NCBI RefSeq assembly: GCF_902499175.1 | Contig: NZ_CABVQC010000033.1 | Span: forward strand, 1 to 64,000 | DNA from: Burkholderia aenigmatica | GTDB lineage: Bacteria; Pseudomonadota; Gammaproteobacteria; Burkholderiales; Burkholderiaceae | DNA length: 64,000 nt | Reading direction: 5' to 3' | Part shown: positions 32,531 through 58,125 of the stretch, in pieces | Numbering within the stretch: the stretch's first letter is position 1 | Layout: every line of letters begins with the position of its first letter | Position numbers and translations under genes: made by a program | The notes under the pieces: model-generated | The model's database searches: none | What the model was told of the DNA's origin: nothing | Seen by the model: the letters and a program-made list of their open reading frames with translations, nothing else

Positions 32531-33046
32531 ATGGAACGCTGGACAGAAGACGAATTCCGGCGCATTGCCCTGGATACGCGTATCAGCGAACGGACCCTTG
32601 ACGCATGCAGGGACGTGCTGGTCGGGGGCATGCTTGGCGTTGACGCAGCCAACAAACATAAGATGTTTCCCTCGCAAATATCGCGGGCGCTTACCACGCT
32701 GCGCGAGAAACATGCCGAGGTGATCGAGATCAGTTCGGTCAGCAAAGAGTCGGATGAAATGCTGCAGTACGTGGCCTCAGAAGTAGCCAAGGCACTGCAG
32801 GGTAAAGACTTTCAGTGCGTGCTCGCCGAGGCTGGACAGACATATGATGGGCAAGTCATTGCCCAATCGAAAGGCTACCTCGTCCAAAAGGTCGGCCGTG
32901 TTGGCGTGCTCCACGACTTGGCGCGCTTCAGCAAACTCCCCCCTCTCAACGAAGACTTGCGGATTGCTTACGGCAAGGCCGGTGGCTTGGCCAAGGTCTG
33001 GGCGCTGCTTCCAGAGCAAGAGAGAGGCAAGGGGCCCGAGCGCTGA
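32531..33046 (+). CDS. KorA/TrfB-like repressor fused to a KfrB-like domain
   Basis: 171 residues. The N-terminus (about 1-60) matches the KorA/TrfB layout: a WTEDEFRRIAL start, then RDVLVGGMLGVDAA and an HTH at about 35-58 (PSQISRALTTL). The C-terminal part (about 104-156) resembles the KfrB domain found on seven other proteins here: YDGQVIAQSKGYLVQK followed by LRIAYGKAGG. RP4 KorA has no such extension. It probably represses genes of this region; the extension may dock it to the element's KfrB-tagged proteins. The gene is followed by the paired direct repeats at 33053. Confidence 0.72.
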   Translation: MERWTEDEFRRIALDTRISERTLDACRDVLVGGMLGVDAANKHKMFPSQISRALTTLREKHAEVIEISSVSKESDEMLQYVASEVAKALQGKDFQCVLAEAGQTYDGQVIAQSKGYLVQKVGRVGVLHDLARFSKLPPLNEDLRIAYGKAGGLAKVWALLPEQERGKGPER

Positions 33047-33052
33047 CGAAAG

Positions 33053-33173: not shown

Positions 33174-33208
33174 CAAGGCCGAAAGTCATTAAATAGTGAG
33201 GTGTGGTC

Positions 33209-35314
33209 ATGGCTGGCAAGTCCAAGTTCGAGCAGTTGAAGGAGCGCTTCGCGCAACAAGCGCGGGCCCGAATCCCGTTCAACCCGTTGGATAGCAAGGA
33301 CATCACGGGTGCGAACGTGGACCGGCTGAAGGCTGGGATGGAGACGTTCGGCTGGAAGGACTATCGCTTTGTGACTGCAGACCAAGCCCGTGCGAATGGC
33401 TGGACCATCGCCGGCAAGGCGAGCAGCGTTCGGATTCAGGAACGCGACGCCAGCAATGGCTCCATAAGTGAGAAGGTGCTCTACAACGCGTCGAACGTGC
33501 GAGGCATACCGTCATTGGAAGCGATGTTGGCCATGTCAGAAGAGGCCATGTTGAAGATGCGGGGTGAAGAGGCGGAAGTGGCTGCGTCCGCCGGAACGCC
33601 GGCTGGTGTCGCGCAAGACGTGCCATCTACCGACGCGGGGGTGAGCGATGTCGAGGACGATATTGTTATTGGTCCCGCCCGCGTGCATGAGCAGCAGGTG
33701 GCTGCGAGTCTCGATGCACAGGCGCAAGACGCGAAGGATCTCGCCCAGGGTGAGTCAGCGGCCGATCTGGACAATTCAGTGAAGGAATCGGGCACGCCGG
33801 CTGTGGCTGGCCAGCCAAATCTGGATCAGGCTGCAGAGCCTGCCGTCGAGACGGACTTTGCGGTAATGGCGCCGTACTGGCTCGATGGCTTGCACAACCA
33901 TGAAGGCATCGAGATGGCCGAGCAGGTAAATCGGCTGATCGCCGCCGAGAAGCTGGCCAGAAACAAAGCGGCGATTGCCACGTTGCTCAACTCCTACCCG
34001 GACAATCGCCGGTTTGGATTGGACATCGTCCCGCAATCGAAGTACCTGAACGACCCGCATCGCAAGGCGAACCTGGCCGAGCCGGCCCACCTTCTCGGAG
34101 GTGAGCTTATTCGGGACAAGGAAGGCGCCTACCGGCCAAAGGCTGGGGGGATGGCTGTGTTGCAGGACAAGGGCTCATCGCTCTTGCTCAAGAACAAGTC
34201 CGAAGAGGCCTATCGCGGTGCGATGGAGCTGGCCTTGGCCAAGGGCTGGAAGGCCATCGAACTCAAGGGCAAGCCCAAGATGCTCGCGCAAGCTTGGCTG
34301 GAAGCCAAGATGATGGGCTTGGAGGTTGTGAACTTCACGCCGACCGAGCAGGACCGCGAGAAGCTCGCACAGCGCATGGCCGAGGAAGTCAGGAAGCGCG
34401 AGGCTGCTGCGGCCAGAGCCGAAGCGCTGGCGCCCGAGAACGTCGAGGTGCGTCCGGTGGTGGACGCCAACGGCAAGCAAGTCATGGCCACGGTCACTTA
34501 CACGGTGGAGCGCACAGACACCCCCGCCGAGCAGCTTGCCTCGTCGAAGGGAGCGCCTAGCAATGCGCTGGCGGCTGAACCGTTCGAAGAGCCGGTTGTC
34601 ACGCGCACCGTTACGCGTGTCGAAGGCGTTGTCAGGGACGACGTGGTTGCTGGGGTTGCTATGGCGCATGCCCCTGAGCAGGGGCGGCAACTGCAGCCTG
34701 AGGCCGTAGCTTCTGTGGTTGATCACGAAGTGAACACGGCGCTGGGCGAAGTGAAGCGCGAGCAATCCGCGCTGGTGGATCTGGAGAAGGGGGCCAAGTT
34801 GGTAGCCCATGGTCCCGCTCCCTATGACCATAACCCGAAGAACAAGGCGAGCTACTTCGTCACCGTCGAGAACGACAGCGGCCAGTCAAGAACGGTCTGG
34901 GGCGTGGATCTGCCGCGCAGCCTCTCCGCAGCCGGCGCAGAGCCAGGCGACACCATTTCGCTTGTCGAAGGTGGCCGCGAGCCCGTGGAAGTCGAGGTCG
35001 AAGAGCCGGACGGCTCCAAGAGCTTCAAGATGACGCACCGTGTCAATTGGACTACGGCAGTGCTGTCCCGGGCGGCCGAGGTAGCGCCAGCGGCGGAAGT
35101 TGCCAGCAGCGGCATGTTCATCGGACCTGTTGTTCGAGTCGAAGAGGGCCGCATCGCCCAGAAAGCAGGCCGTGATCCCAATAAGCTGATTTGGCATGAC
35201 GTATCCAAGCTGCAGGGCAAGGTGCCCGCAGTCGGAGAAATTGCCGAGATCAACTACGCCCACGGTGTTGGCAAGATCAAGGAGCAAGCGCTTGGCCAGG
35301 AGCTGGGCCGATGA
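33209..35314 (+). CDS. Polyvalent protein: ArdC-like N-domain, LPD7, KfrB-like C-domain
   Basis: 701 residues from ATG 33209 (an upstream GTG at 33203 is possible). The N-terminus (about 35-110) carries the ArdC-N-like pattern DYRFVTADQARANGW then NVRGIPSLE. LPD7 is at about 315-400 (GWKAIELKGKPKMLAQAW, GLEVVNFTPTEQD). The KfrB-like C-domain is at about 635-701 (FIGPVVRVEEGR, then VGEIAEINYAHGVGK). A Thr/Val-rich linker separates them. Polyvalent proteins of this kind are thought to be delivered with transferred DNA and protect it. It overlaps the next gene by 4 bp. Confidence 0.75.
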   Translation: MAGKSKFEQLKERFAQQARARIPFNPLDSKDITGANVDRLKAGMETFGWKDYRFVTADQARANGWTIAGKASSVRIQERDASNGSISEKVLYNASNVRGIPSLEAMLAMSEEAMLKMRGEEAEVAASAGTPAGVAQDVPSTDAGVSDVEDDIVIGPARVHEQQVAASLDAQAQDAKDLAQGESAADLDNSVKESGTPAVAGQPNLDQAAEPAVETDFAVMAPYWLDGLHNHEGIEMAEQVNRLIAAEKLARNKAAIATLLNSYPDNRRFGLDIVPQSKYLNDPHRKANLAEPAHLLGGELIRDKEGAYRPKAGGMAVLQDKGSSLLLKNKSEEAYRGAMELALAKGWKAIELKGKPKMLAQAWLEAKMMGLEVVNFTPTEQDREKLAQRMAEEVRKREAAAARAEALAPENVEVRPVVDANGKQVMATVTYTVERTDTPAEQLASSKGAPSNALAAEPFEEPVVTRTVTRVEGVVRDDVVAGVAMAHAPEQGRQLQPEAVASVVDHEVNTALGEVKREQSALVDLEKGAKLVAHGPAPYDHNPKNKASYFVTVENDSGQSRTVWGVDLPRSLSAAGAEPGDTISLVEGGREPVEVEVEEPDGSKSFKMTHRVNWTTAVLSRAAEVAPAAEVASSGMFIGPVVRVEEGRIAQKAGRDPNKLIWHDVSKLQGKVPAVGEIAEINYAHGVGKIKEQALGQELGR

Positions 35315-35727
35315 CAACCGGCGGCCTCTATGCCCAACAAGCTCGCCCCCAGCTTGGGCTGTTTGATGAAGAGCTGGAGCAAGTGCGCGAGCAACTACGC
35401 GCACGAGAGGAGGCATACCACCGCGAGCGCCAAGCGCGGTTCGAAGCGAACAAGGCGCGGATTCTGGCTGATACGGCTGCATGGAAGGGTGGGGAGTTTT
35501 CCGAGCGTATTGACGGGCTGTTGGGCAAGCTTGTCGATGCCGGCGAGCCCGCACGAGGGATGCATGACGCGATCCTCGGTGGCATCAATTCCGCAGCCAA
35601 GGCGGGGCGTCTAGACGAATCGCATGTGGCCTTTGTGGAGGAAAAAGCCCGCATCGAGGTGGCTCGCGTATCCGTGCGCACGCCTGAGAGGCTGGCCAAA
35701 GCGTCAGCTAAGTCGATCAACGTGTGA
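35311..35727 (+). CDS. Hypothetical coiled-coil protein between polyvalent genes
   Basis: 138 residues. A long basic helix (QVREQLRAREEAYHRERQAR, then FEANKARIL) dominates the N-half, followed by a compact domain (GMHDAILGGINSAAKAGRLD). No membrane segment or catalytic motif. It overlaps the preceding gene by 4 bp (ATGA) and ends 8 bp before the next start, so the three genes form one operon. Its role is unknown; it may bridge the tagged proteins. Confidence 0.6.
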   Translation: MTTGGLYAQQARPQLGLFDEELEQVREQLRAREEAYHRERQARFEANKARILADTAAWKGGEFSERIDGLLGKLVDAGEPARGMHDAILGGINSAAKAGRLDESHVAFVEEKARIEVARVSVRTPERLAKASAKSINV

Positions 35728-35735
35728 GGTGGATC

Positions 35736-36554
35736 ATGAACGAGAATGAAGGTGTCGCCGATCCGGCGGGCAATCAAGCCGAGATGGAAGCCGAACGACG
35801 CATCGAGGAGCGCTGGGAAGCTGCCTTTGACGGGATGGATGAAAAGACCGCCCGTGAGTGGGCGAAGCTGGACGTGGATGACTTCGGCAAGATCCAGGAC
35901 AAAGAACTTGCGCGATTTGCTGCCGTCACGATTGCCGGCAACATGGAGAACCCCGCCTACAAGGCCGAGTTCGAGCGCGGAGGCGCGGATATGGTTGCAA
36001 GGGTTGCAGAACGCAACGCAGCTAACAACGCCCTGGTCGCAGCGAAAGAAGAGCGCAAGGCGCGTGCTTATGATGCCATGCTCGCAAGTCGCCAAGAGAG
36101 CGCCAAAAGCTGGTCCCCTGAAGAGGCCTCGAAACAAGCGTTGAGCGACGTAGCCGATTATGCGCGTGCGCTGCATGACCAGCAGACGAGCTTGAATGAC
36201 GTGCCGGGCGTTGAGCTGCACTACCGGCTCGCCGACATGCGCATGTACTCCAAGGCGAACCCAGCATACCTCGGCGCCTTGGAGAAAGCGTTTCCAGCCC
36301 TAGCGCGGGAGATCTCCCACGCAGAACAGCAGACGATCAGTGGAACCTTTATCGGCAAGATCACTGCACTCAATGACACTTATCTGGCGCAGAAGGTCGG
36401 ACGCAATCCACACGATGTCATGGTCCATGCCAGACATGCATTGAACGGAGACGATGTCTCCGTCGGCCACATAGTCACGATCAGCTATGAGATGGGCAAG
36501 GGCCGCCTACGCAATCAAGACCTGGCTGTTGAACAGCGCGGCGTTGGGCGCTAA
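35736..36554 (+). CDS. KfrB-tagged polyvalent-operon protein
   Basis: 272 residues from ATG 35736, with GAGG upstream. The N-terminal 190 residues are helical and acidic (EAERRIEERWEAAFDGMDEK) without a recognised enzyme motif. The last 65 residues are a KfrB-like domain: TFIGKITALNDTYLAQKVGR, then VTISYEMGKGRL and a terminal EQRGVGR. That C-terminus is nearly the same as the next gene's, in protein and in DNA, pointing to a recent duplication or conversion. Confidence 0.68.
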   Translation: MNENEGVADPAGNQAEMEAERRIEERWEAAFDGMDEKTAREWAKLDVDDFGKIQDKELARFAAVTIAGNMENPAYKAEFERGGADMVARVAERNAANNALVAAKEERKARAYDAMLASRQESAKSWSPEEASKQALSDVADYARALHDQQTSLNDVPGVELHYRLADMRMYSKANPAYLGALEKAFPALAREISHAEQQTISGTFIGKITALNDTYLAQKVGRNPHDVMVHARHALNGDDVSVGHIVTISYEMGKGRLRNQDLAVEQRGVGR

Positions 36555-36603
36555 GCCACCACGCGTTGGCGATTCCACTAACGAAAATTTCGGGGAAAAG
36601 AGA

Positions 36604-38352
36604 ATGCCGAACCATGTGAATGAAAGCGGTGAAGTGGCCTTGATGGACGCGCTCGCGGCGGATGATCTCAAAACCGCCAAAGAGATCATGTCGACGCAGA
36701 AGATCTCGGTGACGGTGCGCGACTGGACGCGCTCGAACATGTCGCCGCTTGCGTATGCTGTGCGTCGAAACGACGCCGAATTTGTGGCCGAGTTGATTGA
36801 AGCCGGCGCCGACGTGAATGGATTCGCATTCGGCGACATTCCGCTGATCGCGTTGGCGAACGCCGAATGTGCCGAGCAACTTGCGAGAGCCGGCGCAGAT
36901 GTCAATGCACCCATCAAACGGGACTCCAGCTCTCTTGGCTTGGTGCAGGGCGCCACCGCGCTTATCAAGGCGGCACACCGAGACGATGGTAAGTTGGTGG
37001 CCAAGCTCATCGATCTGGGTGCCGACATCAATGCTGTCGACCGCTTTGGCAGGACTGCGCTCCACTACGCCGCACGCAGCAACGGCGTGGCTGCGAAACA
37101 GCTACTGGCGGCGGGTGCAGATCTTCTGGCGGAGGACCGATTCGGGAAGACACCGACCTTCTACGATGCGGCCCCGCAGTTGAAGCCTGTTGACTTGCGC
37201 CAGCAAGGCGCAGCGGTACGGTCGGCCGTGCCGCCGACGGAGCAGCGCGCAACCGCGCGCCCTGCAAAGCTAGCCCGGTTGGCGCTTGGAACTGCAGCGG
37301 AGGAGGAACTCCTGCAGGCACTGAACGGCTTCGAGTACACGGTGGGAGACAAGTTGTCTTTGGACCATGGCGAGTTCCTTTACCTGAATGGCAAGGATGT
37401 GCTGGGGGAGGGCTCCCAATTCGCCGTGGTGCCCCGTTCGATGTCTCTTCCGGTCACTCGCTTCAGTGATGAAGGCGATTTGGAGTCGTATCTTGCCGAC
37501 CAACAACTTGCATCGCGCGATCGGAGTGCGGTGCATGCGTTCTTCCTGATCAGCCAGCAGCGGGATGGTCTGGCGCACGAGCAAATCGCTGCGCCGCCGG
37601 AGAATGCGATCATTGGGATCGCACGCACTGTCAGCCAGGATGCCATCAACCTGAACGAGTACATTTCCCGCATCGAGCACGATGGTGGCTTGTCGGTTGG
37701 TCATGGGACGCAAGACGGGCCCGAGACCCTCCTACAAGGTCGGTATGTTCGCGATGGCGCAGGGCAATACCGCCGCCTTGGCGAGGAGCAAATCGCGCTG
37801 GTGGATGAAGGGGACAAGATTCGGTTTGTGGACAAGCAGACCGATACGTTCCACGCGGCTGGTGAACTTGCTGGTGCCAAGAAGTGGCAGGCAATCCAGG
37901 TGACCGGCAGCGAGAAGTTCTGCGCGGATGCCTGGTTCTCGGCTCGCCTGGCCGGACTGGATGTCATCGGTTACGAGCCGACTGCCAAGGATCTGGATCG
38001 CCTTGAGACGGCGGTGGAACGAGGTTTCTCTAAGGCTTTTGCAGACACACCTCGCCATCTGACGGCAGCAAACCACGCACGCGAGGTGCCCAACGAGGGG
38101 CCACCTCTTGCCAGCACGCTGCACCCGTTAGCGGTCAGCGGAACCCATATTGGCAAGATCACTGCGCTGAGCGACAACCACCTGGAGCAAAAGGTCGGAC
38201 GGGATCCTCGCAATGTCGTAGTGCACGATCGAAGCGTATTGAGCGGCGATCCCGTGGATGTCGGGCAAGTCGTCACCATCAAATACGAGCTGGGGAAAGG
38301 CGTGCTCAGCAATCATGACTTGGCTGTTGAGCAGCGCGGCGTGGGGCGCTGA
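36604..38352 (+). CDS. Ankyrin-repeat, LPD7, KfrB-like protein
   Basis: 582 residues from ATG 36604, with a purine-rich GGGGAAAAGAGA before it. The N-terminus (about 10-190) has several ankyrin repeats, for example MSPLAYAVRRNDAEFVAELI then EAGADVN, and a clear TALHYAARSNG repeat. LPD7 follows at about 383-470 (KKWQAIQVTGSEKFCADAW) and the KfrB-like end at 513-582 (HIGKITALSDNHLEQKVGR). Ankyrin repeats bind proteins and are common in secreted effectors. A protein delivered to recipients is plausible but unproven. Confidence 0.75.
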   Translation: MPNHVNESGEVALMDALAADDLKTAKEIMSTQKISVTVRDWTRSNMSPLAYAVRRNDAEFVAELIEAGADVNGFAFGDIPLIALANAECAEQLARAGADVNAPIKRDSSSLGLVQGATALIKAAHRDDGKLVAKLIDLGADINAVDRFGRTALHYAARSNGVAAKQLLAAGADLLAEDRFGKTPTFYDAAPQLKPVDLRQQGAAVRSAVPPTEQRATARPAKLARLALGTAAEEELLQALNGFEYTVGDKLSLDHGEFLYLNGKDVLGEGSQFAVVPRSMSLPVTRFSDEGDLESYLADQQLASRDRSAVHAFFLISQQRDGLAHEQIAAPPENAIIGIARTVSQDAINLNEYISRIEHDGGLSVGHGTQDGPETLLQGRYVRDGAGQYRRLGEEQIALVDEGDKIRFVDKQTDTFHAAGELAGAKKWQAIQVTGSEKFCADAWFSARLAGLDVIGYEPTAKDLDRLETAVERGFSKAFADTPRHLTAANHAREVPNEGPPLASTLHPLAVSGTHIGKITALSDNHLEQKVGRDPRNVVVHDRSVLSGDPVDVGQVVTIKYELGKGVLSNHDLAVEQRGVGR

Positions 38353-38969: not shown

Positions 38970-39302
38970 ATGATCTCGATTGAGGTTTTTGCTGCAAAAG
39001 ATCCGTCCGGAGCTTTGCAGGGAATCATGATGACAGTCCCGCTGGGGTGTGGCTTGAAGCAGGCCGACACGCTTCGCATCCACGGTTCGCGGCTGCTTGC
39101 TATGGAGCGACGGTCGATCCTCCCGATCGATTTCCCGGAGGTCGATGAAGCCAGCTTGAGGGACCTAGTTGAGACGGCCAAGCGACGGGGGCAACTTGCC
39201 GTCGGCGAGTTCACAGCATTGGGTCTGGCGGACAGTTATCTGCTGTCGTTGGAAGTTGCAGCACCTTCGTCCGACGTTGCTGCCGTTGAGGGCGGTCTGT
39301 GA
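38970..39302 (+). CDS. Small conserved-type protein upstream of the TraC-like primase
   Basis: 110 residues from ATG 38970, or 91 from ATG 39027, which has an AGGGA ribosome site. The KorB-like palindrome at 38986 lies inside the longer version, which slightly favours the shorter. The sequence is mixed alpha/beta (LKQADTLRIHGSRLLAMERR). No motif recognised. Its stop overlaps the next start (TGATG), so it is coupled to the primase gene. It may be an accessory to that protein. Confidence 0.55.
   Translation: MISIEVFAAKDPSGALQGIMMTVPLGCGLKQADTLRIHGSRLLAMERRSILPIDFPEVDEASLRDLVETAKRRGQLAVGEFTALGLADSYLLSLEVAAPSSDVAAVEGGL
38986..39000. promoter_or_regulatory. KorB-like palindrome, copy 7
   Basis: TTTTTGCTGCAAAAG (one outer mismatch) at the 5' end of the 38970 frame. 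If the gene starts at 39027 this is an ordinary upstream operator. Confidence 0.65.
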
Positions 39303-43045: not shown

Positions 43046-43063
43046 TGTTAATTATGTGTTAAT
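43046..43063 (+). promoter_or_regulatory. Direct-repeat operator TGTTAAT x2, copy c
   Basis: TGTTAATTATGTGTTAAT at 43046-43063, 22 bp before ATG 43086. The short distance implies the site overlaps the promoter or transcription start. Confidence 0.6.
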
Positions 43064-43085
43064 TGTAAGTGTCGGCGAGGGTCCT

Positions 43086-44213
43086 ATGGAGATGAGTGAG
43101 GCGCGGTACTTGGGCGGTCGGCCCAACTACGTGAGCCCGACCGTGGGCGAAGACGGGGTATGGGCGTCTGCGGGTGCGCATGCGCTGCGTGGCGTCTTGC
43201 GCCGACAGTCGGCCCGTGGGGTGATGGACCTGCTGAAGTCGATGGACGCGAGTGGCATGGCAGCGATTCTCCGCGAAACCGGCTTCAAGGTGGATGAGCG
43301 CTTGGTTGGCCAAGGCCGGGGTGCCGTGTATGAGGGTGTGAAGGGCGATCTGCAAGCGGCGTTGGTGCAGGGTGTTGACGGATTCGGATTGCAGAAAGGC
43401 AGGGCAGTGCGGGGAATGAGTGGTCAGGGCCCGGTAGCTGCCCAGCGCTCACAAGTTGCGGTTACCGAGGAATATCCGGGCAACCAGCAGGCGGCGGAAA
43501 TGATTCAGGGAGTTTTGAAGGCATCCGGAGTGCGAGTCGCCCCGCTCGGGGAACAGCCGTTCTCCCAACGGGCCTCGCTGCAGATGGTCGCGGCGCAAGC
43601 GCTGAAGAAGGGCGTACTCGGATTCGGGTTCGATGGCCTGCCTGGAAAATTCTCGGTGCCGGCGCCGATGTCTGAGGTGGTCGATTTGCATCGGCAAGCC
43701 GCTATTGAAGTGGCAACGCAATCGACCCGCGCAGGTCTGGCGGCTTGGGTGTCCGGCGCGAAGGTGGCGGATCTGAGCGAGTGGGTGCCCGATAGCGTGC
43801 AGCGACTCTTGCACGGCAGTGTCTCCAAGGACGCCGCTGAAATCGTTGTGAGCGGCCTGCAAAGCGGCAGCATTGCGCGACACGCGCAGGAGTTTGGTAT
43901 TCACGGGATTGCCGGGCTGCTGCGGGCCCAGGGGCTCGATGCCGATGCTCCGACCATCGGCGAGCAAGCTGATGAGATGGGTCTGCGAATCAAGGAGCCG
44001 GATCGCGAGCGAGGCCAGTATTTTGGCACCGTGGTCGCGCAAGACCATCGATCCAGCCTCATCAAGATCAACCGCGAGGAAGCGATTGAACTGCCCTTTG
44101 CGGAGGCGTCCGGAGTTCAACCGCGCGTCGGCGAGCTGCTGCGGATCGGATTCAAGGCAGGCGTCCTGAGCGTCAGCTCCAAAGATATGGGCCGCGAAGG
44201 CAATTCGCGCTGA
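43086..44213 (+). CDS. Protein with a divergent KfrB-like C-terminus
   Basis: 375 residues from ATG 43086 (preceded by CGAGGG). A pattern of short hydrophobic helices repeats through the body, for example LLKSMDASGMAAIL and MIQGVLKASGVRVAPLG, with two similar halves that may be an internal duplication. The end (about 315-370) has YFGTVVAQDHRSSLIKINRE then VGELLRIGFKAGVL, a degenerate KfrB-like domain. No catalytic motif. It sits directly behind a direct-repeat operator. Confidence 0.6.
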   Translation: MEMSEARYLGGRPNYVSPTVGEDGVWASAGAHALRGVLRRQSARGVMDLLKSMDASGMAAILRETGFKVDERLVGQGRGAVYEGVKGDLQAALVQGVDGFGLQKGRAVRGMSGQGPVAAQRSQVAVTEEYPGNQQAAEMIQGVLKASGVRVAPLGEQPFSQRASLQMVAAQALKKGVLGFGFDGLPGKFSVPAPMSEVVDLHRQAAIEVATQSTRAGLAAWVSGAKVADLSEWVPDSVQRLLHGSVSKDAAEIVVSGLQSGSIARHAQEFGIHGIAGLLRAQGLDADAPTIGEQADEMGLRIKEPDRERGQYFGTVVAQDHRSSLIKINREEAIELPFAEASGVQPRVGELLRIGFKAGVLSVSSKDMGREGNSR

Positions 44214-47490: not shown

Positions 47491-47582
47491 GCGCAGCGTG
47501 ACGCAGAGCTGCTCGACATGGCCCCGTTCGCGGACCAGAGTGCGGTCGCGCAACGGGTGTGAACGGCTGACGGTTGCCCTTC

Positions 47583-48422
47583 ATGTGGTACGCAGAAATG
47601 GGTACGCATGAGGCGCTTACGATCGATGAGTGCAAGCAGGCAGTCATCGACTTTTGCCAGCAATACCCTATTGCGCTCAAAATAGCATACGTGATCAGGG
47701 ACAAGCAGGAGGATGCACTTGGAATCCCAGAAGCTACCAAAGAGCGAGTCGGAAACGTCGCAGGAGCCTACTTTCCTGCACGACGCCGAGTCGCCCTCGC
47801 AGTTTCCAACCTTCGTGACGCGCAAAACGTTGAGCGAACGCTTCGCCACGAACTCCTCGGACACCTTGGAATCAACACTTTTGCGGCACGTGACAAACGC
47901 GCCTTGCTCGCCCGCATCGCCGAAGCCCGAGAGCAACCAGGGCTAACAGAGTTGTGGCGCAACGTGGAACGCGAGTATCCGCGTGACTCCGTCGACCGGC
48001 AGGCTGAAGAAGTATTCGCCTCCGTATGCGAGGTAATCACACCGGAGCGCTTCCACCGTGCCCCCGCTGGCCAAGCGGCCTTTGCGGAAGTCTGTCAGGA
48101 GCGTGCGCGCCCGATGACTGCCCAAGACCTGGTGGACATCGCCACGCTGGTGGCAGATGGGCTGCACCGGAGAGAACGCCGGCAGCAAATTTTCCCGGTC
48201 CGTGACAACGATCAGTTCTGCGAGGGCACCTTCGTCGGCCCAATCCTTGGCATTGAGGGCCGCGTGGCGATGCAACGGATCAACCGTCAAGGTGAAGTTG
48301 TGATGCACAGCCTTGAAGCGCTGGCCAGTCCCGTAACGCCTGGGACGTTGGTGGAGATCAGCTACAGCGATGGCCTCGGGCGGGTCAACGAGTTGGGCGT
48401 CGATCGCGGTATCGGGCGGTAG
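47583..48422 (+). CDS. HEXXGH zincin with KfrB-like domain
   Basis: 279 residues from ATG 47583 (ATG 47598 is also possible). RTLRHELLGHLGINTF holds HELLGH (H89-H94). The spacing is HExxxH, as in dipeptidyl-peptidase III-type zinc sites (HEXXGH), not the usual HEXXH. A downstream RQAEEVFASVCE may give the third zinc ligand. The C-terminal 60 residues are KfrB-like (FVGPILGIEGRVAMQRINR, then VEISYSDGLGRV). It matches the second half of the preceding gene, so it is a paralogue. Confidence 0.7.
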   Translation: MWYAEMGTHEALTIDECKQAVIDFCQQYPIALKIAYVIRDKQEDALGIPEATKERVGNVAGAYFPARRRVALAVSNLRDAQNVERTLRHELLGHLGINTFAARDKRALLARIAEAREQPGLTELWRNVEREYPRDSVDRQAEEVFASVCEVITPERFHRAPAGQAAFAEVCQERARPMTAQDLVDIATLVADGLHRRERRQQIFPVRDNDQFCEGTFVGPILGIEGRVAMQRINRQGEVVMHSLEALASPVTPGTLVEISYSDGLGRVNELGVDRGIGR

Positions 48423-49633: not shown

Positions 49634-49692
49634 CGCGCGGGCTGGCCGTGCGAAAATTACATCATTTAGTTGTCATTCGTTTGGAGAGATTG

Positions 49693-52600
49693 ATGCAACT
49701 CGACCTGTTCGGCGCCACTCGGGAGGAGGCGACTCAGGAAACGGCGCCCCCCATCATCACAAACACGGGGGCGTGGCGCCACCCTGAAGCTGAAGCCTTC
49801 GATGTCGCCTTGCGGACGGGTTCATTAATCAATGTTGTTGCGATTCTCAACAAGCTGAAGACTGACGCGGCTGCCAAAGTCCTGTTGGCGTCAGGCTTTG
49901 CTATCACCACGATGAAGGACCGCGCCCAACTTATGAAGGACGTGCAGCCGCAGCTCATGGCGGCCGTGCGCCTCAGGATGACGGGCCACGAACTGCACGA
50001 CCATCGCAAGGCACAGATCGATCGCGCTACAGCCCAAGAGGCTTGGGAATCTGGTACATTAATTAATAATTCGCAACAGCCTCAGGAAGCGACGGAGAAT
50101 CAGGATCATGGAAGCACTCTACAAACGCGAGCTGTACGGGGAGACGACCGCCCTCAAAATCGAGTCGATGGGGTCGACGGCAGTCTCCATCGCGAACCGC
50201 TGGGCGCTGGGGTGGCAGGATCGGGTGACCGCTCTGTTGGTCGCCAACCAGTACCTGAACAAGCTGACCGCGCAGACCGATCTGGAGAAGGACGTTCTGG
50301 CGAACGAGACGGAAATGACCCATCTGTCGCGCCACGAGATCCTGGCGATGCACGGAGTGCAACAGGAACCGCCGGAAGCAACGCACCTGGTGGGCTGAGC
50401 ACACCACCTACGGCCCGTAGCGAGTCCCAGCCTAGCGAGCCCCCGCCCGCAGCAGCTCAAGCGTCTACCCCACCCGACAGCAACGGCATTGCGTTGCTGC
50501 GTCAGATCGAAGCGGCCTGGCGCCAAGCCATCCCCGAAGATGGTCGCTTCATCTTCAATCGCCTGTACCCAGCGACGGCAACCCTCAACGGTGTGACGCG
50601 CCGTTTCGGCGTCAGCAAGGCCAGTGGCGCCGGCCCATTCCGCCTCACAGCCCTGGTGCAAAACCAGTTGGGCCCTCAATTCAACTACTACAAGCTCACG
50701 CGCGAAGGCGAGGTGATCCGCGAAGGGCAGAGGAACCTTTGGGCGCTGACGCCCGAAGCGCGTGAGATCCAGATCAACGAGTTCAAGGCCGTTTTCCAGG
50801 CTGAGGAATTGGGCACTGACGTCGCCACGACTCAGAAAGATGGCGCCCAAGCAACGCCACCGCTAGGCGCGCAAGACCTGGCGCAAGGTGAAATCCGCCA
50901 GCAACACAAGGCGGCCGATGCTCTGGCGCCGCAGACCTCTACCGATGCGCAAGGTGCAACGAGTGCGACCGCAGGTACCGCGCAAGACGCAGCAAAAGCG
51001 GCAGCGCGCGAGGCGCCTGGAACGCGCCATCGTCTGCCAAGTGATGCTCCTCAACTGGAGCGCTTGAAGCAAGTCATTGAAACCTTCCACCCAAGCCGCA
51101 ATACCCTTGAAGGCAACGCCCGCGCTGCAATTGCCCTCGTCATTCAGGAACTGGAGCGCCCGAGAACGGTAGCCAGTGTGACCGCCATGCTCGAAAAGGC
51201 GTCCAGCGACCTCATGAAGCAGTGGCCTGCCCAAGCACAAGTCGTTGAGGAAGTTGCCGAAGCGCTGAAGGATACTCGCGAGCGGGCCCAGAGCCTGGCG
51301 AAGCCCTCAAGCGAGGGCCACACCATCGTGGGCCGCCGTGCTGATGGCGTCATGATCCGGCAGGATCAGAACGGCGTGCGTTTCTATGCCGAGGGTGGCG
51401 TTCGTATCAGTGAAAGCGTGAGCATGCGACCCACGCCCGAAGGCATGCGCATTGAACGCGGTGAACTGAAGCGCGACTTCATGACGGCTGAGGAATCCGC
51501 CGCGCAACGCGCGCAGAAGGCGCCGGCCCCAGGAGAACAGGGCGTTGAAGACTTGGGTGCCTTCATCCGTGTCGCGGCCGACTCAGTTGAGGAATTGCGC
51601 CGGGTGGACGTCATGCGAGTGCTGGAATCCAACTCGCTGCGCAAATTTTCGTTGGCCCGCTACATCGCTCAGCAGCGACCGGACCTGGAGCAGGAAGTCT
51701 CCGAAGTGATGGTGGATGAATTCGGCCTGCCGGACTGGCGCGCACGTGAGGATGAGGTGGACAACAAGGGTGAGATCCAGCTCACCGAATCCAAGGCCAT
51801 CGTCCAGCCGCAAGCCACCGAGCAACCGGCGCCCGCCGCAGGGGTCCAGATCGCAACGGCGGGCACCACTACCCCTGTTGAATCGCGGGCCGCCGCAGAA
51901 CGGCGTCCAGCTTCGGCGCCGCCTTCCGAGATCGTGCCGCCGGTACGCCAGAAGCCCAGCGCCCAAATCCCCCTCGGCCCCCGGCCACCGATGGTGGGCC
52001 CGATCACGTACACCCGCGAGCAATTGGAGTCGATCTACGTCACGCAGATGACGGACCAGCAGTTGCGCCAGGCCTCGGAATTCTTCACCGAGGGCAGTCG
52101 AGCGCAAGCGATTCGACTGCAGATTGAGAAGCGTGCCCAAGAGGCGCAGGCCGCCCTTGCCGCCCAAGCTGAAGCGGCGCAAGCCGAAGCATTGGCCTCC
52201 GTGCGTGCCGTCAAGCCCGCTGGCCAAGAGCGCTATGGTGAGCGGCTGGACCACGTTATTACTGACGCGGACCAGATCGGGCAGGGTGGCCTCATGGAGA
52301 AGTACCGGGACAACGTCCGCGCAATTCAATTGGTGCGCACGCTTGACGCGGAGAACCGCAACGCGACGGCCGACGAACTGCGCGTGCTGGCCAGGTACGT
52401 GGGATGGGGCGGCTTGAAAGGCGTTTTCGACCCGCAGAACAAGAATTGGGCGCAACAGCATGTTGAGCTGAAAGCCTTGCTGACGGACGCCGAATGGGCT
52501 GCGGCGAGCCGCTCACAGCTTGATGCGTTCTACACAGCGCCTGTTGTGGTCGATGCCATGTACGCGGGCCTCTCACGCATGGGCTACAACGGCGGCAGGA

Positions 52601-55600
52601 TGATCGACCCCGCCATGGGCAGCGGCAATTTTGTCGGCATGATGCCGGCTGAGATGCGGCGCGAGTCGAGCATTCACGGCGTTGAGCTGGACATCCTCAC
52701 GAGCCGTATTGCCGCCGCGCTGTACCCGACGGCCAAGATCGCGAAGGCCACGGGCTTTCAGGCGTACAACGCGCCGGCAGGCTACTTCGACCTGGTGGTG
52801 GGTAATCCGCCGTTCGGTAGCCAGCCCATTGTGGACGAGCGCGGCTCGGCCTACTCGGGCTGGTCCATTCACAACTACTTCTTTGCCAAGAGCATCGAGT
52901 TGCTGCGGCCAGGCGCCCTGATGTCCCTGGTGGTCTCGCATTACTTCCTCGACAAGCTCGATCCCCAGGTCCGTCAGTGGATTTCGCGCCGCGCGGAGCT
53001 GGTGTCGGGCGTGCGCCTGCCCAACAACGCGTTCAAGGGCAACGCGAACACGGAAGTGGTGACTGACGTCCTTATATTCCGTCGCGTTGACCACGAGAAC
53101 TCGCTCGGCCGTGACGAGCGTCCGGACTGGTTGGAGACGACGGACGTCGAGATCGAGAATCCGAAGACGGGCGACATCGCCTCGCTCGCGGTCAACAACT
53201 ATTTCCTGAAGAACCCGCAGAACGTCCTCGGCAAGCACTCGGCCGAGGGCACGATGTACCGCGCCAACGAATACACGGTGGTGCCAGACGAATCCAAGGG
53301 CACCCTGCAGGAGCAACTTGCTCGCTGGGTCGAGACCCTGCCCGTGGGCATCTATTCGCGCATCGAGCGCACGGATGACGTGGAGGTGTCAGCGGCAGCC
53401 AGCGACATCCCGGAGCACATCAAGGAAGGGTCATTCTTTCTCAAGGAATCGAAGGACGGCCCGGCCGTCTGGCAGCGCTTACCGGACATGCGTGGCGAGC
53501 AACGCGCAGTGCCATGGGAAGCACCCAACGAGCGTGCTGGCGAGCGCATGGTGGGGATGATCCGCATCCGCGAGGCCCTGCGCGCGCAGATGCGACTGGA
53601 GCGCAGCCCGGAAGCTACGGATCCTCAGATCGAATTCCATCGTCGCGAGCTGAACCGGATCTACGACGGCTTCAACAGCAAGTTCGGTTTCCTCAATGAT
53701 CCGGTGAACCGGCGCATCTTCCTGGACGACACCGAGTCGCCCTTGGTGCAAGCGCTGGAGTTCGATTACGAAAAGGCCATCACGCCTGCCTATGCGCAAG
53801 AGCACGGCGTAGAGCCGAGGCCTGCGCGCGCCGTGAAGGCGGACATCTTTAGTCGGCGCGTGCTTTTCCCACCTGGTGAGCTGGAGGTGGTGGAGACGGC
53901 CAAGGATGCGCTGCTGCACTCGCTCAATCAGCGTGGCCGTGTTGACCTGGAGTATATGCAGCGAGCCTATGGCCGCGAGGAAAAAGAGATCGTCGCCGAG
54001 CTGGGCGATCTGATCTATTTCGATCCGAAGTCGGGTGCCGTGGTCACGGCCGACGAATACCTGTCGGGCGACGTGAAGACGAAACTTGCACACGCGCTGG
54101 AGGCAGCCAAGGAGAAACAGGAACTGCAGCGCAACGTGCAAGCGCTACAGAGCATCATTCCGGCCGACAAGATGCCCTCGGAGATCCACGCGGCAATCGG
54201 TGCCAGTTGGATCCCAGTAAAGCATTACCAGGCCTTCGCCCGCGAAATCTCAGGCGGTGAGGCAGCTTTCACCTACGTGCGCTCCACGGGCCAGTGGCTC
54301 ACGGGCGAGAAGCGGGGTATCAACTTTGCCAAGAACAACAACGAGTTCGGCACACCCAAGATGGGCGCCATCGACATCCTAGGGTTGGCGATGAACAGCC
54401 GCGCTCCAGAGGTCAAAAAGCCGGTGGAAGTAGATGGACAGACGCGGTACGTGACCGACGAGGAGCAGACCGAAGCGGCACGGCAAGCGGCCGACAAGAT
54501 CAAATCACACTGGGAGTCATGGCTGTGGGGCGATCCAGAACGGGCGCAGGAGTTGGCCGGCATCTACAACGAACGCTTCAACCGGACGGTTGAGCGCAAG
54601 TTCGACGGTTCGCACCTAACGTTCCCTGGGATGAGCCCGGCCATCGAGCTACTTGGCCACCAGAAAAATGCGGTCTGGCGCGGCCTGCAGAGCCGCACCA
54701 TGTTGCTGGACCACGTGGTCGGCGCCGGCAAGACCTACGAGAGCATTGCCATGTTCATGGAGATGCGCCGGCTTGGCATCTGCAACAAGCCTCTGCTGGC
54801 GGTGCCCAACCACCTGACACTGCAATGGCGCAGTGACTTCTATCGCCTCTATCCCGGCGCGAACGTGCTGGCGGCCACGCCTCAGGACTTCGAGAAGGAG
54901 AATCGCGAGCGACTGTTTTCCAAGATCGTGACGGGGAACTGGGACGCAGTGATTATTGGCCATTCCGCGTTGAAGAAGATTCCCCTGCCGCCCGGTGCCG
55001 AGATGCAGGTCATCGGCGAACAGGTTGACGACATCAGCGGCGCCATTGAGGACATGAAGCGCGAGCGTGGCGATCGCCACGTGATCCGCGACATGGAAAA
55101 GATCAAGGCCAATCTCGAAGCCAAGGTCGCACGGCTCAAGGAGAAAGCCGGCGACAAGACTAAGGTCGTGGATATGGCCGATTTGGGCATTGACGGTCTT
55201 GAGGTCGACGAAGCCCACGAGTTCAAGAATCTGTTTTTCAATACGCAGATGAACCGCGTGGCGGGACTGGGCAATCCGGCAGGCTCCGGCAAGGCCTTCG
55301 ATCTGTTCGTCAAGACCCGATGGCTGCAGAACACCTACGGCGAGGACGTTCCGCTGATTCATGCGACGGGCACGCCAGTGTCCAACTCGTTGGCCGAGAT
55401 GTTCACGGTGCAGCGGTATCTGCAGTACAACAAGCTCAAGGCCGAAGGCCTGCACGTCTTTGATGCGTGGGCCAAGCAGTACGGCGATGTGCAGAACGTC
55501 TACGAGGTCGCGCCCTCAGGCACGGGCTATCGGTTGTCGCAGCGCTTCGCGAAGTTCAAGAACCTGGGCTCGCTCATGGGCGAGTATCGCAGCTTCGCCG

Positions 55601-58125
55601 ATGTGGTCACGCTCAACGATCTCAAGGCGCAAGAGCTTGCGCGCGGCAAAGTCTTCCCGGTGCCCAAGCTCGCGGGTGGCAAGCCCAAGAACATCGTGGT
55701 GCCGCGCTCCAAGCTGCAAGAGGCATTCTTTGGCGTCCCGGAGATCGCCCGCAATAAGGACGGCAACATCCGTTTCGAGCTGAGCCTTGATCCAGACATG
55801 CCGGTTAACATCGTCGCAGTCGAGGACGGTAAGTTCGAGATGCAGCAGCAAGACGGTGACATCGTTCGCCGTGGCAGCCGGCGCTACGAGACGGCAGAGG
55901 AAGCCGCCTACATGACGGCGCTCTCGGCAATCACTCCGGTCATGCATATCGACCCGAAGTCGATCATTGGCCAGTTCGAGAACCTGCGGCAACTCACGCG
56001 GGAGACAAAGGGCAAGGTCAATGCGCTTTCACTGACGGGCTTGGCCAACAAGGCAGGCCTGGACTATCGCCTCATCGATCCAGCGGCGCCGGACGATCCC
56101 AACAGCAAGATCAACCACGCCATCGACAACATGATGGACCTGTGGAAGCAATGGGAGGCGGACAAAGGCACGCAGCTCGTCTTCTGCGATCTGTCGGTGC
56201 CGCTGTCGGCCAAGGCGAAGATGGCCAGCAAGGAGAAGCGCATCTACGTGCGCGACGAGGCAGGAGCGCTCACGCATAAGAAGGGCACGTTCCACGCGCC
56301 CAAAGACTATGAGGGTCTGGCGTACTTTCTTACCTCCAGCGGGCGCAAGAATGAGCGGACTTTCTCAATGTACGACCCGACCACGGGCCAGCTCATGAAG
56401 GAAGGCCTGGACAGCAAGCAAGACGCGCACGAGTTCTTTGCGCGCCTGGTGCAGCAGGAAGGCGGCACGGAGCGCTGGCTGGACATGCGCGAGCAGTCGC
56501 GCCCGATCGGCGAGGACGAGATCGAGGAGTACAAGAACGAACACTCGCTGGACGTGGAGGGCGATGCCGCCGATGTGGAGTTCTCACTGACTGACATCGA
56601 AGGCGCCACGGGTGTCACGGGCTTTTCGGTCTACGACGACATGAAGGCCAAGCTGATCGCACGCGGCGTACCTGAGTCGCAGATCGAGTTTATTCACGAT
56701 CACGACACGCCGCAGGCAAAGGATGCGCTGTTCAAGCGCACGAACGCGGGCGACGTGCGTTTTCTCTTTGGCTCCACGCCGAAGATGGGCGCCGGCACCA
56801 ACGTACAGAAGCGCATCGTAGGCCTGCATCACATCGACGCACCCTACCGTCCCTCGGACCTGGAACAGCGTGAAGGCAGAGGCATCCGACGCGGCAACAT
56901 GCTCTACGAACGTGATCCTGATGGCTTCGAGTTGGGCGTGTACCGGTATGCCACGTCGCAGACGTATGACACGCGGCGCTGGCAATTGCTTGAGCACAAG
57001 GCCTCAGGCATCGAGCAACTGCGCAACTACACGGTGGGCGTCAATGAGATCGAGGACGTCACAACCGAGGCCTCGAATTCTGCTGATATGAAAGCTGCGG
57101 CCAGCGGCAATCCGCTGATCCTGAAGGAAACACAGCTCGCCAATGAGGTGAAGAAGCTGCGCAATCTGGAGCGCGCACATCGTGATGGTCAGTTCCTGCT
57201 GCAATCTCGGCTTAACTCCAATCGCAACTATGTCAACGTCTACGGCCCGAAGGATCTAGCCGTGCAAGAGGCGTTGAAAGCTGCGCGGGACGCGGCAGCC
57301 GTGCTGGGTGTGTTTGATGGCAAACAACTGCACACCAAAGAGGAAGTCATGGAGGCGATGGACGGCATTGATGCTCATATCTCGGCGTTGAGCACGCCAA
57401 AGAGCCTGACCTATCGTGGCCTTGAGTTCCAATTCGCTTATTGGCAGGACGCGGAGTTCTATGTGATGACCATGCCCGACGGCGACAAGCACCGGATGGA
57501 AGCGTTGTCGCGCTCAGGCGCAGTCACGCGCATGGAGAACTTCTGCGAGGGCGTGGAAAAGGCCGAGGCAGGCGTTCGAGCCCAAATCTCCCGCGCGGAG
57601 CGTGAAGTGCTGAGCCTCTCCGAGTTGGTCGGCAAACCGTTCGATCAGGCGGATGAACTTCAAGAAGCGATCGCAGAGCATGGCAAGGTGCAGCGGGCGT
57701 TGCGCAAGTCCAACTCATTGGCAGCAGTCAAGCCCGAAGAGGCAAGGGCATTCAAGGCGGCCGTGGATTTGCAGAAGCAGAAGCTGCGTGACATGGGGCT
57801 GGGAGAAGCCGTGGCCGAGATCGAGCGCGAAGAGCAAAACGATCTTCAGCTTGCGCCTGGCGCCATGGGGGGCCAAGACACGGCTGATGCTGCCAGGGTG
57901 GGCGCACCGAGCGGCCAGCGACATGGCGAGTTCGTGGGCCAGATCATCAAGGTGGGAGCGGACCACGTGGTACAGAAGATCAACCGTGAAGGAAAGACCG
58001 CCACGCATAGCCTGGTGGACATGGACGGCGCGCTGGATCGACTCCAGGTCGGCGAGGTTGTGACGATCAAGTACCGGGCCGGCCGAGGGGAGGTAGCTTC
58101 CCACATTGGTATCACTCTCGAATAG
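49693..58125 (+). CDS. Giant polyvalent protein: N6-methyltransferase and SNF2-like helicase with KfrB-like end
   Basis: 2810 residues from ATG 49693 (GGAGAG upstream; GTG 49648 rejected). It has a methyltransferase motif NPPF at 1038-1041 within FDLVVGNPPFGS, typical of adenine-N6 enzymes. Helicase motif I GAGKT is at 1677-1681, DEAH at 1839-1842, and motif VI-like QREGRGIRR near 2393. The KfrB-like domain is at about 2747-2805. Such fusions occur in plasmids and are thought to modify or remodel incoming DNA. Residues about 140-235 read like an out-of-frame linker and overlap a second ORF. Confidence 0.82.
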   Translation: MQLDLFGATREEATQETAPPIITNTGAWRHPEAEAFDVALRTGSLINVVAILNKLKTDAAAKVLLASGFAITTMKDRAQLMKDVQPQLMAAVRLRMTGHELHDHRKAQIDRATAQEAWESGTLINNSQQPQEATENQDHGSTLQTRAVRGDDRPQNRVDGVDGSLHREPLGAGVAGSGDRSVGRQPVPEQADRADRSGEGRSGERDGNDPSVAPRDPGDARSATGTAGSNAPGGLSTPPTARSESQPSEPPPAAAQASTPPDSNGIALLRQIEAAWRQAIPEDGRFIFNRLYPATATLNGVTRRFGVSKASGAGPFRLTALVQNQLGPQFNYYKLTREGEVIREGQRNLWALTPEAREIQINEFKAVFQAEELGTDVATTQKDGAQATPPLGAQDLAQGEIRQQHKAADALAPQTSTDAQGATSATAGTAQDAAKAAAREAPGTRHRLPSDAPQLERLKQVIETFHPSRNTLEGNARAAIALVIQELERPRTVASVTAMLEKASSDLMKQWPAQAQVVEEVAEALKDTRERAQSLAKPSSEGHTIVGRRADGVMIRQDQNGVRFYAEGGVRISESVSMRPTPEGMRIERGELKRDFMTAEESAAQRAQKAPAPGEQGVEDLGAFIRVAADSVEELRRVDVMRVLESNSLRKFSLARYIAQQRPDLEQEVSEVMVDEFGLPDWRAREDEVDNKGEIQLTESKAIVQPQATEQPAPAAGVQIATAGTTTPVESRAAAERRPASAPPSEIVPPVRQKPSAQIPLGPRPPMVGPITYTREQLESIYVTQMTDQQLRQASEFFTEGSRAQAIRLQIEKRAQEAQAALAAQAEAAQAEALASVRAVKPAGQERYGERLDHVITDADQIGQGGLMEKYRDNVRAIQLVRTLDAENRNATADELRVLARYVGWGGLKGVFDPQNKNWAQQHVELKALLTDAEWAAASRSQLDAFYTAPVVVDAMYAGLSRMGYNGGRMIDPAMGSGNFVGMMPAEMRRESSIHGVELDILTSRIAAALYPTAKIAKATGFQAYNAPAGYFDLVVGNPPFGSQPIVDERGSAYSGWSIHNYFFAKSIELLRPGALMSLVVSHYFLDKLDPQVRQWISRRAELVSGVRLPNNAFKGNANTEVVTDVLIFRRVDHENSLGRDERPDWLETTDVEIENPKTGDIASLAVNNYFLKNPQNVLGKHSAEGTMYRANEYTVVPDESKGTLQEQLARWVETLPVGIYSRIERTDDVEVSAAASDIPEHIKEGSFFLKESKDGPAVWQRLPDMRGEQRAVPWEAPNERAGERMVGMIRIREALRAQMRLERSPEATDPQIEFHRRELNRIYDGFNSKFGFLNDPVNRRIFLDDTESPLVQALEFDYEKAITPAYAQEHGVEPRPARAVKADIFSRRVLFPPGELEVVETAKDALLHSLNQRGRVDLEYMQRAYGREEKEIVAELGDLIYFDPKSGAVVTADEYLSGDVKTKLAHALEAAKEKQELQRNVQALQSIIPADKMPSEIHAAIGASWIPVKHYQAFAREISGGEAAFTYVRSTGQWLTGEKRGINFAKNNNEFGTPKMGAIDILGLAMNSRAPEVKKPVEVDGQTRYVTDEEQTEAARQAADKIKSHWESWLWGDPERAQELAGIYNERFNRTVERKFDGSHLTFPGMSPAIELLGHQKNAVWRGLQSRTMLLDHVVGAGKTYESIAMFMEMRRLGICNKPLLAVPNHLTLQWRSDFYRLYPGANVLAATPQDFEKENRERLFSKIVTGNWDAVIIGHSALKKIPLPPGAEMQVIGEQVDDISGAIEDMKRERGDRHVIRDMEKIKANLEAKVARLKEKAGDKTKVVDMADLGIDGLEVDEAHEFKNLFFNTQMNRVAGLGNPAGSGKAFDLFVKTRWLQNTYGEDVPLIHATGTPVSNSLAEMFTVQRYLQYNKLKAEGLHVFDAWAKQYGDVQNVYEVAPSGTGYRLSQRFAKFKNLGSLMGEYRSFADVVTLNDLKAQELARGKVFPVPKLAGGKPKNIVVPRSKLQEAFFGVPEIARNKDGNIRFELSLDPDMPVNIVAVEDGKFEMQQQDGDIVRRGSRRYETAEEAAYMTALSAITPVMHIDPKSIIGQFENLRQLTRETKGKVNALSLTGLANKAGLDYRLIDPAAPDDPNSKINHAIDNMMDLWKQWEADKGTQLVFCDLSVPLSAKAKMASKEKRIYVRDEAGALTHKKGTFHAPKDYEGLAYFLTSSGRKNERTFSMYDPTTGQLMKEGLDSKQDAHEFFARLVQQEGGTERWLDMREQSRPIGEDEIEEYKNEHSLDVEGDAADVEFSLTDIEGATGVTGFSVYDDMKAKLIARGVPESQIEFIHDHDTPQAKDALFKRTNAGDVRFLFGSTPKMGAGTNVQKRIVGLHHIDAPYRPSDLEQREGRGIRRGNMLYERDPDGFELGVYRYATSQTYDTRRWQLLEHKASGIEQLRNYTVGVNEIEDVTTEASNSADMKAAASGNPLILKETQLANEVKKLRNLERAHRDGQFLLQSRLNSNRNYVNVYGPKDLAVQEALKAARDAAAVLGVFDGKQLHTKEEVMEAMDGIDAHISALSTPKSLTYRGLEFQFAYWQDAEFYVMTMPDGDKHRMEALSRSGAVTRMENFCEGVEKAEAGVRAQISRAEREVLSLSELVGKPFDQADELQEAIAEHGKVQRALRKSNSLAAVKPEEARAFKAAVDLQKQKLRDMGLGEAVAEIEREEQNDLQLAPGAMGGQDTADAARVGAPSGQRHGEFVGQIIKVGADHVVQKINREGKTATHSLVDMDGALDRLQVGEVVTIKYRAGRGEVASHIGITLE
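50108..50398 (+). CDS. Nested out-of-frame ORF inside the giant gene
   Basis: 96 residues in the +1 frame relative to the giant gene. ATG 50108 has GGAG upstream, and a frame-2 stop precedes it at 50060. The sequence reads as a normal folded protein (IANRWALGWQDRVTALLVAN then HLSRHEILAMHGVQQEPPEA). The giant frame across the same bases is Gly/Arg/Asp-rich, like a frameshifted translation. Either it is a real overlapping gene or the giant gene contains compensating indels. No function recognised. Confidence 0.55.
   Translation: MEALYKRELYGETTALKIESMGSTAVSIANRWALGWQDRVTALLVANQYLNKLTAQTDLEKDVLANETEMTHLSRHEILAMHGVQQEPPEATHLVG

Follow-up and report, generated by a model that had tools for sequence, protein, structure and literature searches.

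Eight proteins of different kinds that are encoded in the window, the 64,000-nucleotide stretch of Burkholderia aenigmatica contig NZ_CABVQC010000033.1 analysed here, end in copies of one domain, KfrB (Pfam PF18790, with a curated cut-off of 25 bits). The KfrB domain is found on relaxases and on many unrelated enzymes, at the C-terminus, and is absent from the structural proteins of the type IV secretion system (T4SS) that were tested and from the phage versions that were examined. From these sequence patterns, and by analogy with the known secretion signal BID, KfrB and the tail of ∼11 residues behind it probably constitute a modular C-terminal recognition tag for a conjugative T4SS, and the proteins bearing the tag would enter the recipient cell. 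The transfer reading is based on a demand that relaxase, toxins, primase, methylases and zincins would share, namely that they reach the recipient. Polyvalent and toxin-type proteins were predicted to enter the recipient together with the DNA, and no common tag is named in the literature found; the tag, if true, would provide a sequence rule that predicts the protein cargo of KfrB-bearing elements.

The window contig looks like a conjugative element in its gene content. The window encodes VirB11-, VirB4-, TrbG- and TrbI-like proteins, ParA, ParB and a TraG/VirD4 coupling protein (58430..60877, forward strand; T4SS-DNA_transf, 320 bits; no KfrB found), which is the likely receptor, together with a TrbL-like protein that falls just under the cut-off. 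An earlier sequence-only reading had assigned a shared KfrB-like C-terminal domain to eight genes, and all eight reading frames exist, their noted starts differing by a few codons from those of the longest frames. Seven of the eight proteins pass the PF18790 cut-off, with E-values of 1.5e-8 to 3.5e-14, and in all eight the domain ends 7 to 17 residues before the stop. The E-values of the seven and the C-terminal place in all eight exclude a chance resemblance. The final residue is arginine in seven of the eight carriers.

All eight carriers lie on the forward strand and have unrelated N-terminal parts, as the sequence-only reading had claimed; the ArdC-like part that it also named is not seen by Pfam in any of them. 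The first is a PapB/TrfB-like helix-turn-helix protein (32531..33046; KfrB at 32840-32983, 53 bits; end GPER), whose helix-turn-helix match is below the Pfam cut-off. Its N-terminal group (cluster 2), a KorA-like regulator, comprises frames of 167-195 amino acids (aa) with KfrB in 13 elements. It is followed by an LPD7 protein (33203..35314; LPD7, 46.8 bits; KfrB at 35117-35281, 35.9 bits; end ELGR), a 276-aa protein with no named Pfam part besides KfrB (35724..36554; KfrB at 36345-36506, 38.8 bits; end GVGR) and a protein consisting of ankyrin and LPD7 parts (36487..38352; KfrB at 38143-38310, 47.9 bits; end GVGR). Further downstream lie a 385-aa protein with a divergent KfrB-like tail (43056..44213; tail at ∼44013-44183; end GNSR), an LPD1 polyvalent protein (44326..47490; LPD1, 61.6 bits; KfrB at 47296-47448, 41.7 bits; N-terminal QMDLF; end GLDR), a zincin-like protein with a HELLGH motif seen by eye (47574..48422; KfrB at 48228-48386, 35 bits; end GIGR) and a 2825-aa Eco57I/N6 methylase and helicase protein (49648..58125; KfrB at 57931-58098, 35.8 bits; N-terminal QLDLF; end ITLE), which is DarB-like as judged by its phage relatives. 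The combination of methylase with helicase, and of ankyrin with LPD7, each in one polypeptide, agrees with the pattern of polyvalent proteins.

The 385-aa protein gives no Pfam match at E 0.01. Its tail aligns with the other window tails and scores in our own iterated profile, the seed of which included this protein; since the seed contained it, the tail is likely, rather than independently proven, to be the eighth and divergent KfrB copy. The N-terminal group of this protein (cluster 9) occurs in three other elements as well. The tails of the neighbouring genes at 35724 and 36487 have 219 nucleotides in common, with an ungapped score of 97 (matches minus mismatches) and ∼72% identity. The likeness of their DNA begins at the domain edge and shows no upstream extension, although 900 nucleotides were supplied, so that here the KfrB tail looks to have been copied onto a different protein.

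A search of the element and of related plasmids with a KfrB profile, as the sequence-only reading had suggested, extended the carrier list. In the whole genome ten PF18790 matches were obtained at E≤1, of which nine lie on the 90.8-kb window contig (seven inside the window and two just past it) and one on another contig. PF18790 is matched at E≤0.001 in 37 of the 299 family genomes searched, and above the cut-off in 30; in the class, the domain occurs in 8 of 369 genomes, the window genome included. In total 23 elements or contigs (1.6 Mb), picked because KfrB, or a relaxase or coupling protein of the same kin, was present, were read, and these contain 133 carriers (136 before removal of exact within-element copies), with 1 to 14 carriers per element. 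Genome record G277 was dropped as it is the same record as plasmid W05, and counts over elements are not independent because W04 and G126, with 93% identity between their relaxases, are closely related; Fisher values calculated over the elements are therefore not to be read as probabilities. By their N-terminal parts the carriers divide into 31 groups, and six of these groups are present in at least nine elements. The toxin-type carriers named by Pfam are Fic/DUF4172, AbiEii, Zeta toxin and HipA proteins, and further named carriers comprise a DUF6036 nucleotidyltransferase, a C5 methylase, Eco57I/N6 methylase with helicase, DUF5710 (Toprim), LPD1 and LPD7 proteins; the others have no Pfam name besides KfrB. 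One carrier, in G212, unites ArdC, zincin (MPTase), DUF5710, Toprim and KfrB, and the pBVB_1-type DUF5710 protein has KfrB at 67.9 bits and a Toprim match below the cut-off. The elements of the KfrB-tag family are plasmids and integrative and conjugative elements, mainly of Betaproteobacteria.

The last KfrB lies at most 26 residues from the stop in 132 of 132 carriers (20 elements, one duplicate record dropped), a few carriers having a second or third copy further inward. In a second set of 20 KfrB contigs, no more than 36 residues separate the domain from the stop in 17 cases. Arginine is the final residue in 97 of 121 non-coupling carriers (R751 and G277 excluded), or in 22 of 29 when one carrier is taken per N-terminal group, as compared to 100 of 797 background frames (longest non-overlapping frames of at least 200 aa, not annotated genes) and 0 of 10 coupling proteins. 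The consensus carrier end is G-[LIV]-x-R, and the pattern [LIVM]-x-R fits 60 of the 121. Lysine and arginine together make up 24% of the residues in the tails behind KfrB, and aspartate and glutamate 13%.

The relaxase is the obligatory transfer substrate of a conjugative element and pilots its DNA into the next cell. Outside the window, the contig encodes an MOBP relaxase (C33:69718-72546) with a KfrB-type tail that ends in leucine, and a Fic protein (C33:76055-77572) with a KfrB-type tail that ends in arginine. Against PF18790 this relaxase scores 18 bits (E 0.0285), which is below the cut-off. The window relaxase was part of the seed of our first profile, which, to avoid circularity, was rebuilt without relaxases and coupling proteins; by the rebuilt profile the window relaxase is not recovered (E 3.5, and no match in the element survey). 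In a profile-profile comparison, the five aligned relaxase tails of the window clade match the relaxase-free profile with 95% probability (E 4e-8, 54 columns), and two control regions give 0.6% and 0.8%. Since the single-sequence profile fails, it is the profile-profile match that suggests that the MOBP relaxase of the window element ends in a divergent KfrB, an assignment that is new here.

Other relaxases carry more readily recognized copies. KfrB is found above the cut-off in the PF03432 relaxase frame of six genomes (G177, G126, G132, G277, G069 and G034), and fused relaxase-KfrB proteins are found in 5 of 11 plasmid records (W04-W08, W05 being the G277 record). No KfrB carrier other than the relaxase was found in G132 and W05. 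The relaxase-free profile matches the relaxases of 9 of 16 relaxase-bearing elements at E<1e-3 (duplicate G277 removed) and, more weakly, those of W07 (1.8e-3), W02 (3.8e-3), G255 (0.031 and 0.058) and W01 (0.14); the relaxases of W03 and W09 do not match it. Six KfrB signature positions (G, A, Q, H, Y, G) are invariant in ten relaxases. A scan of genome contigs yielded 13 relaxase loci, several being the same elements, in which a KfrB tail is present on the relaxases of L137, L138, L139, L141, L142 and L146, and weakly on that of L148. No KfrB tail occurs on the relaxases of L140, L143, L144 and L145, and those of L147 and L149 are truncated by the contig ends. Among viral contigs, a scan for the relaxase yielded no relative.

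The coupling protein itself carries a C-terminal KfrB in 10 of the 18 elements that have one. Behind this domain there are 0 to 4 residues in nine of the coupling proteins and 8 in that of W07; KfrB without an arginine tail is as expected for the receptor side. For one of these proteins Pfam gives T4SS-DNA_transf at 311 bits and KfrB at 31.3 bits. No KfrB was found on the coupling proteins of the window clade (G000, which is the window genome, G255, W01 and W02), nor on those of G034, W09, W10 and R751. Because in 10 of 18 elements it is the coupling protein, and not a cargo protein, that carries the domain, KfrB cannot be only a secretion signal. The idea of a docking or secretion signal put forward in the sequence-only reading thus gains from the relaxase, coupling protein, toxin and anti-defence carriers and from the absence in the phage versions and structural proteins examined, but does not hold in its pure secretion form. 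As a separate observation, among the coupling proteins that lack KfrB those of G000, G255, W01 and W02 end in VSAF and that of G034 in VRAF. In plasmid CP053916, a 552-aa frame with three KfrB domains lies directly upstream of the coupling protein (L113:14530-16185) and is a possible adaptor.

KfrB is missing from homologues of T4SS structural and partition proteins, i.e., from VirB4 (0/16), VirB9 (0/17), VirB10 (0/18), VirB11 (0/16), TrbL (0/12) and ParA (0/18). The phage relatives of the carriers show a similar absence. The methylase-helicase core of the 49648 protein matches 115 phage records, and the seven phage homologues that were read correspond to pieces of residues ∼870-2743 at 39 to 59% identity, several being annotated as DarB-like antirestriction proteins. 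None of these seven phage genomes contains KfrB when searched whole. A core-only search of the 23 elements gave 16 frames of at least 400 aa, of which 12 carry KfrB, including all nine that are longer than 1,900 aa; the other four are short fragments, of which three lie next to a KfrB-bearing piece. When nine KfrB carriers were compared to phage PHROG families, the best matching stretch never covered KfrB; the 44326 and 47574 proteins both match PHROG 616 outside the domain. Three KfrB queries gave no match at E≤1 in 50,697 phage records. In a viral structure library the best match is a 478-aa protein of the metagenomic 'Myoviridae sp. ctPkm1' (TM 0.60, E 1.8e-3, 26% identity), the remaining matches having E 0.018 or worse. 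The ctPkm1 protein is a possible phage exception.

KfrB is predicted to be a 55-residue, all-β domain of the OB type. The AlphaFold model of the 44326 tail consists of a five-stranded Greek-key barrel (mean pLDDT 88.2) without a long helix. The best match of KfrB in the Protein Data Bank (PDB), by sequence and by fold, is a published OB domain, and the structural neighbours after zeta_1 include cold-shock, IF5A and RPA OB domains. For the C-terminal OB domain of the gonococcal plasmid toxin zeta_1 (PDB entries 6EPG, 6EPH and 6EPI), the relevant passages of PMC5923241 give no function, and state that few zeta toxins have it.

The closest functional parallel appears to be BID (Bep intracellular delivery), a four-helix bundle of ∼100 residues (described in part of PMC6509941) that is present in Bartonella effectors, in VbhT and in relaxases of alphaproteobacteria. 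According to passages of PMC6509941 and PMC5675462, BID is a proven T4S signal with a positively charged tail, and occurs on relaxases, Fic and Zeta/PezT proteins; a Fic-BID protein, VbhT, was seen to be transferred in conjugation. Going by those passages, both domains are modular and C-terminal, are followed by a short tail, and occur near a T4SS on relaxases, Fic and Zeta-type proteins; the tag reading is supported by the parallel, because the carrier list of Fic, Zeta and relaxase repeats that of BID. From its sequence context and by this analogy, KfrB would work as BID does. The two differ in that BID is a helical bundle whereas KfrB is all-β, with no homology of fold when judged by description rather than direct alignment, in that KfrB also occurs on coupling proteins, and in that transfer was demonstrated for BID and is proposed for KfrB. 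If the tag reading is true, the problem solved by BID would have been solved a second time by KfrB, for like cargo types and with an unrelated structure. The sequence-only reading had pointed to the VirD4-docking domain of Xanthomonas effectors instead. This domain, XVIPCD, is likewise C-terminal on unlike antibacterial VirB/VirD4 effectors of Xanthomonas and Stenotrophomonas, a likeness drawn from partial descriptions, but BID is the better analogue because it too is found on relaxases, Fic and Zeta proteins. Polyvalent proteins, as treated in passages of PMC5512222, are of the same carrier kinds (zincin, ArdC, LPDs, methylase, SNF2 and Toprim) and are predicted there to be transferred with the DNA. 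Those passages mention no common C-terminal tag or link to the coupling protein, and the main text of that paper, supplements aside, contains no word with 'kfr'. In the open-access literature on KfrB, polyvalent proteins, BID/XVIPCD, zeta toxins, translocation signals and conjugative effectors, KfrB was not found named as a transfer tag, and no paper was found for the phrase 'KfrB domain'.

If KfrB indeed acts as a transfer tag, its OB fold would dock the tagged protein at the coupling protein, presumably through or beside the latter's own C-terminal KfrB in many elements. The flexible, arginine-ended tail, as the second half of the signal, would then engage the translocation apparatus. The cargo entering with the DNA would include the methylase-helicase, primase, zincin/ArdC proteins, Fic, Zeta, AbiEii and HipA toxins and the KorA-like regulator, which may serve to protect, replicate and entrench the DNA in the recipient. 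A more specific version, which is offered tentatively and is rather doubtful, is that the tail-less KfrB of the coupling protein pairs with the arginine-tailed KfrB of cargo and relaxase, or that both bind a shared adaptor, such that unrelated proteins are sorted into the channel. Were this two-sided docking true, it would amount to a general, swappable code by which this family of conjugative elements loads its cargo, and one that arose separately from BID for like kinds of cargo.

Several observations weigh against a transfer tag, or restrict its form. The occurrence on coupling proteins implies that KfrB is not purely an export signal, and is perhaps a docking module with two sides; moreover, KfrB is lacking on the coupling proteins of the window clade. 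Only 6 of 32 relaxase matches in the 30 KfrB-bearing genomes have KfrB above the cut-off in their frame. The IncP-type relaxases (G255:C3, G059, G148, G093 and G071) lack the domain, such elements having a stand-alone KfrB a few kilobases from the relaxase instead, and the whole R751 record holds only a stand-alone KfrB. Relaxases of the same family in L143-L145 end in short, arginine-rich basic tails without KfrB, and no KfrB is present anywhere in those loci. In the second set of 20 contigs, KfrB is internal to the frame in three, and only 10 of 20 carriers end in arginine. The net charge of the last ten residues averages +1.2 for cargo, +0.5 for background and +2.0 for coupling proteins; since the latter reach +2.0, charge alone cannot separate cargo from coupling proteins. 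Tails of different carriers within one element are no more alike than those of different elements of the clade (the observed value was reached in 247 and in 199 of 500 permutations; G008, G058, G132, G277, W05 and R751 excluded). Because the elements were selected by KfrB or a kin relaxase, the fractions given above are no rates for plasmids at large. According to part of PMC11288057, T4SS signals differ widely, which is a warning against one universal tag. As for the tails, an element-specific co-adaptation of tags to their own receptor was considered and rejected, as the permutation test shows none. Within a clade the tails follow the carrier; between the two clades like carriers score 0.177 and unlike carriers 0.177, a comparison that was not built upon, the carrier links between clades being loose (common LPD7 or methylase only).

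KfrB could alternatively tether proteins to the Kfr/partition scaffold (KfrA filament, KorB) in the donor and serve maintenance rather than export. In R751, an IncP plasmid, KfrB belongs to the same Pfam family (75.5 bits) and, according to part of PMC8124265, links KfrA and KfrC in a maintenance complex, an observation that also speaks against a transfer tag. The presence of KfrB on the KorA-like regulator in 13 elements fits a scaffold as well. The R751 protein differs from the tags described here: it is a stand-alone protein of 115 aa beside kfrC, annotated as 'plasmid survival protein', and is reported as a linker and not as a tag. For docking at the coupling protein, the same source gives indirect experimental hints, namely this link of KfrB to KfrC and the binding of RA3 KfrC to VirD4, but no interaction of KfrC with TraG was seen for RK2 and R751. 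The tether does not work as a general explanation: of the 14 multi-KfrB elements only five have KfrA_N on their contig or element, whereas all 14 have a coupling protein. Among the nine without KfrA_N are the complete plasmids NZ_CP021369, NZ_CP102461, NC_012970, CP053916 and pBVB_1, and a scaffold leaves both KfrB on toxins and the arginine end unexplained. KfrA as the common receptor was rejected as a general account, KfrA_N being missing from 9 of the 14, and the tether is unlikely.

Less likely still is that KfrB is an OB domain binding single-stranded nucleic acid, by which tagged proteins ride on the transferred strand or act on it; this is consistent with the five-stranded barrel model, with the cold-shock, IF5A and RPA neighbours and with the many carriers that act on DNA. 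The least probable of the alternatives is a general interaction or antitoxin-binding module without a single partner, spread by hitch-hiking. Zeta, HipA, AbiEii and Fic carriers are indeed toxin-antitoxin type proteins, and by hand tally 13 of 43 KfrB contigs, several of them short, are without a relaxase (PF03432) or near coupling protein, which counts against a transfer tag too; 30 of the 43 have one or the other, and G179:C111 was scored as without, though a coupling-protein match above the cut-off lies 58 kb off. However, relaxase, coupling protein, methylases and primases are not toxins, and an antitoxin module leaves the C-terminal place and the arginine end unexplained.

Some further features of the window concern the neighbours of the carriers. 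Within the cargo region a DUF5710 and Toprim protein (39299..41932, forward strand) and the protein at 42698-42970 have no KfrB, yet their ends (GVER and AMSR, respectively) resemble those of the arginine-ended carriers. The genes for the coupling protein and a transglycosylase are followed by one for an EAL-domain protein (61699-62820), as they are in plasmid NZ_CP021369. On a second contig of the window genome, near another relaxase and coupling protein, a Toprim-like protein (L012; G000:C4:128593-128778) carries a weak KfrB with a longer end behind it, and similar frames of 635-670 aa recur in other genomes. The N-terminal QLDLF of the 49648 protein recurs in its G255 and W01 relatives, and QMDLF of the 44326 protein in its G255 and W02 relatives. 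We take these motifs to resemble the binding motif for the β-sliding clamp. The clamp-type motif gives 10 matches in 1461 frames, with 2.8 expected by shuffling, and a QLGLF was seen by eye in the protein at 35311-35727.
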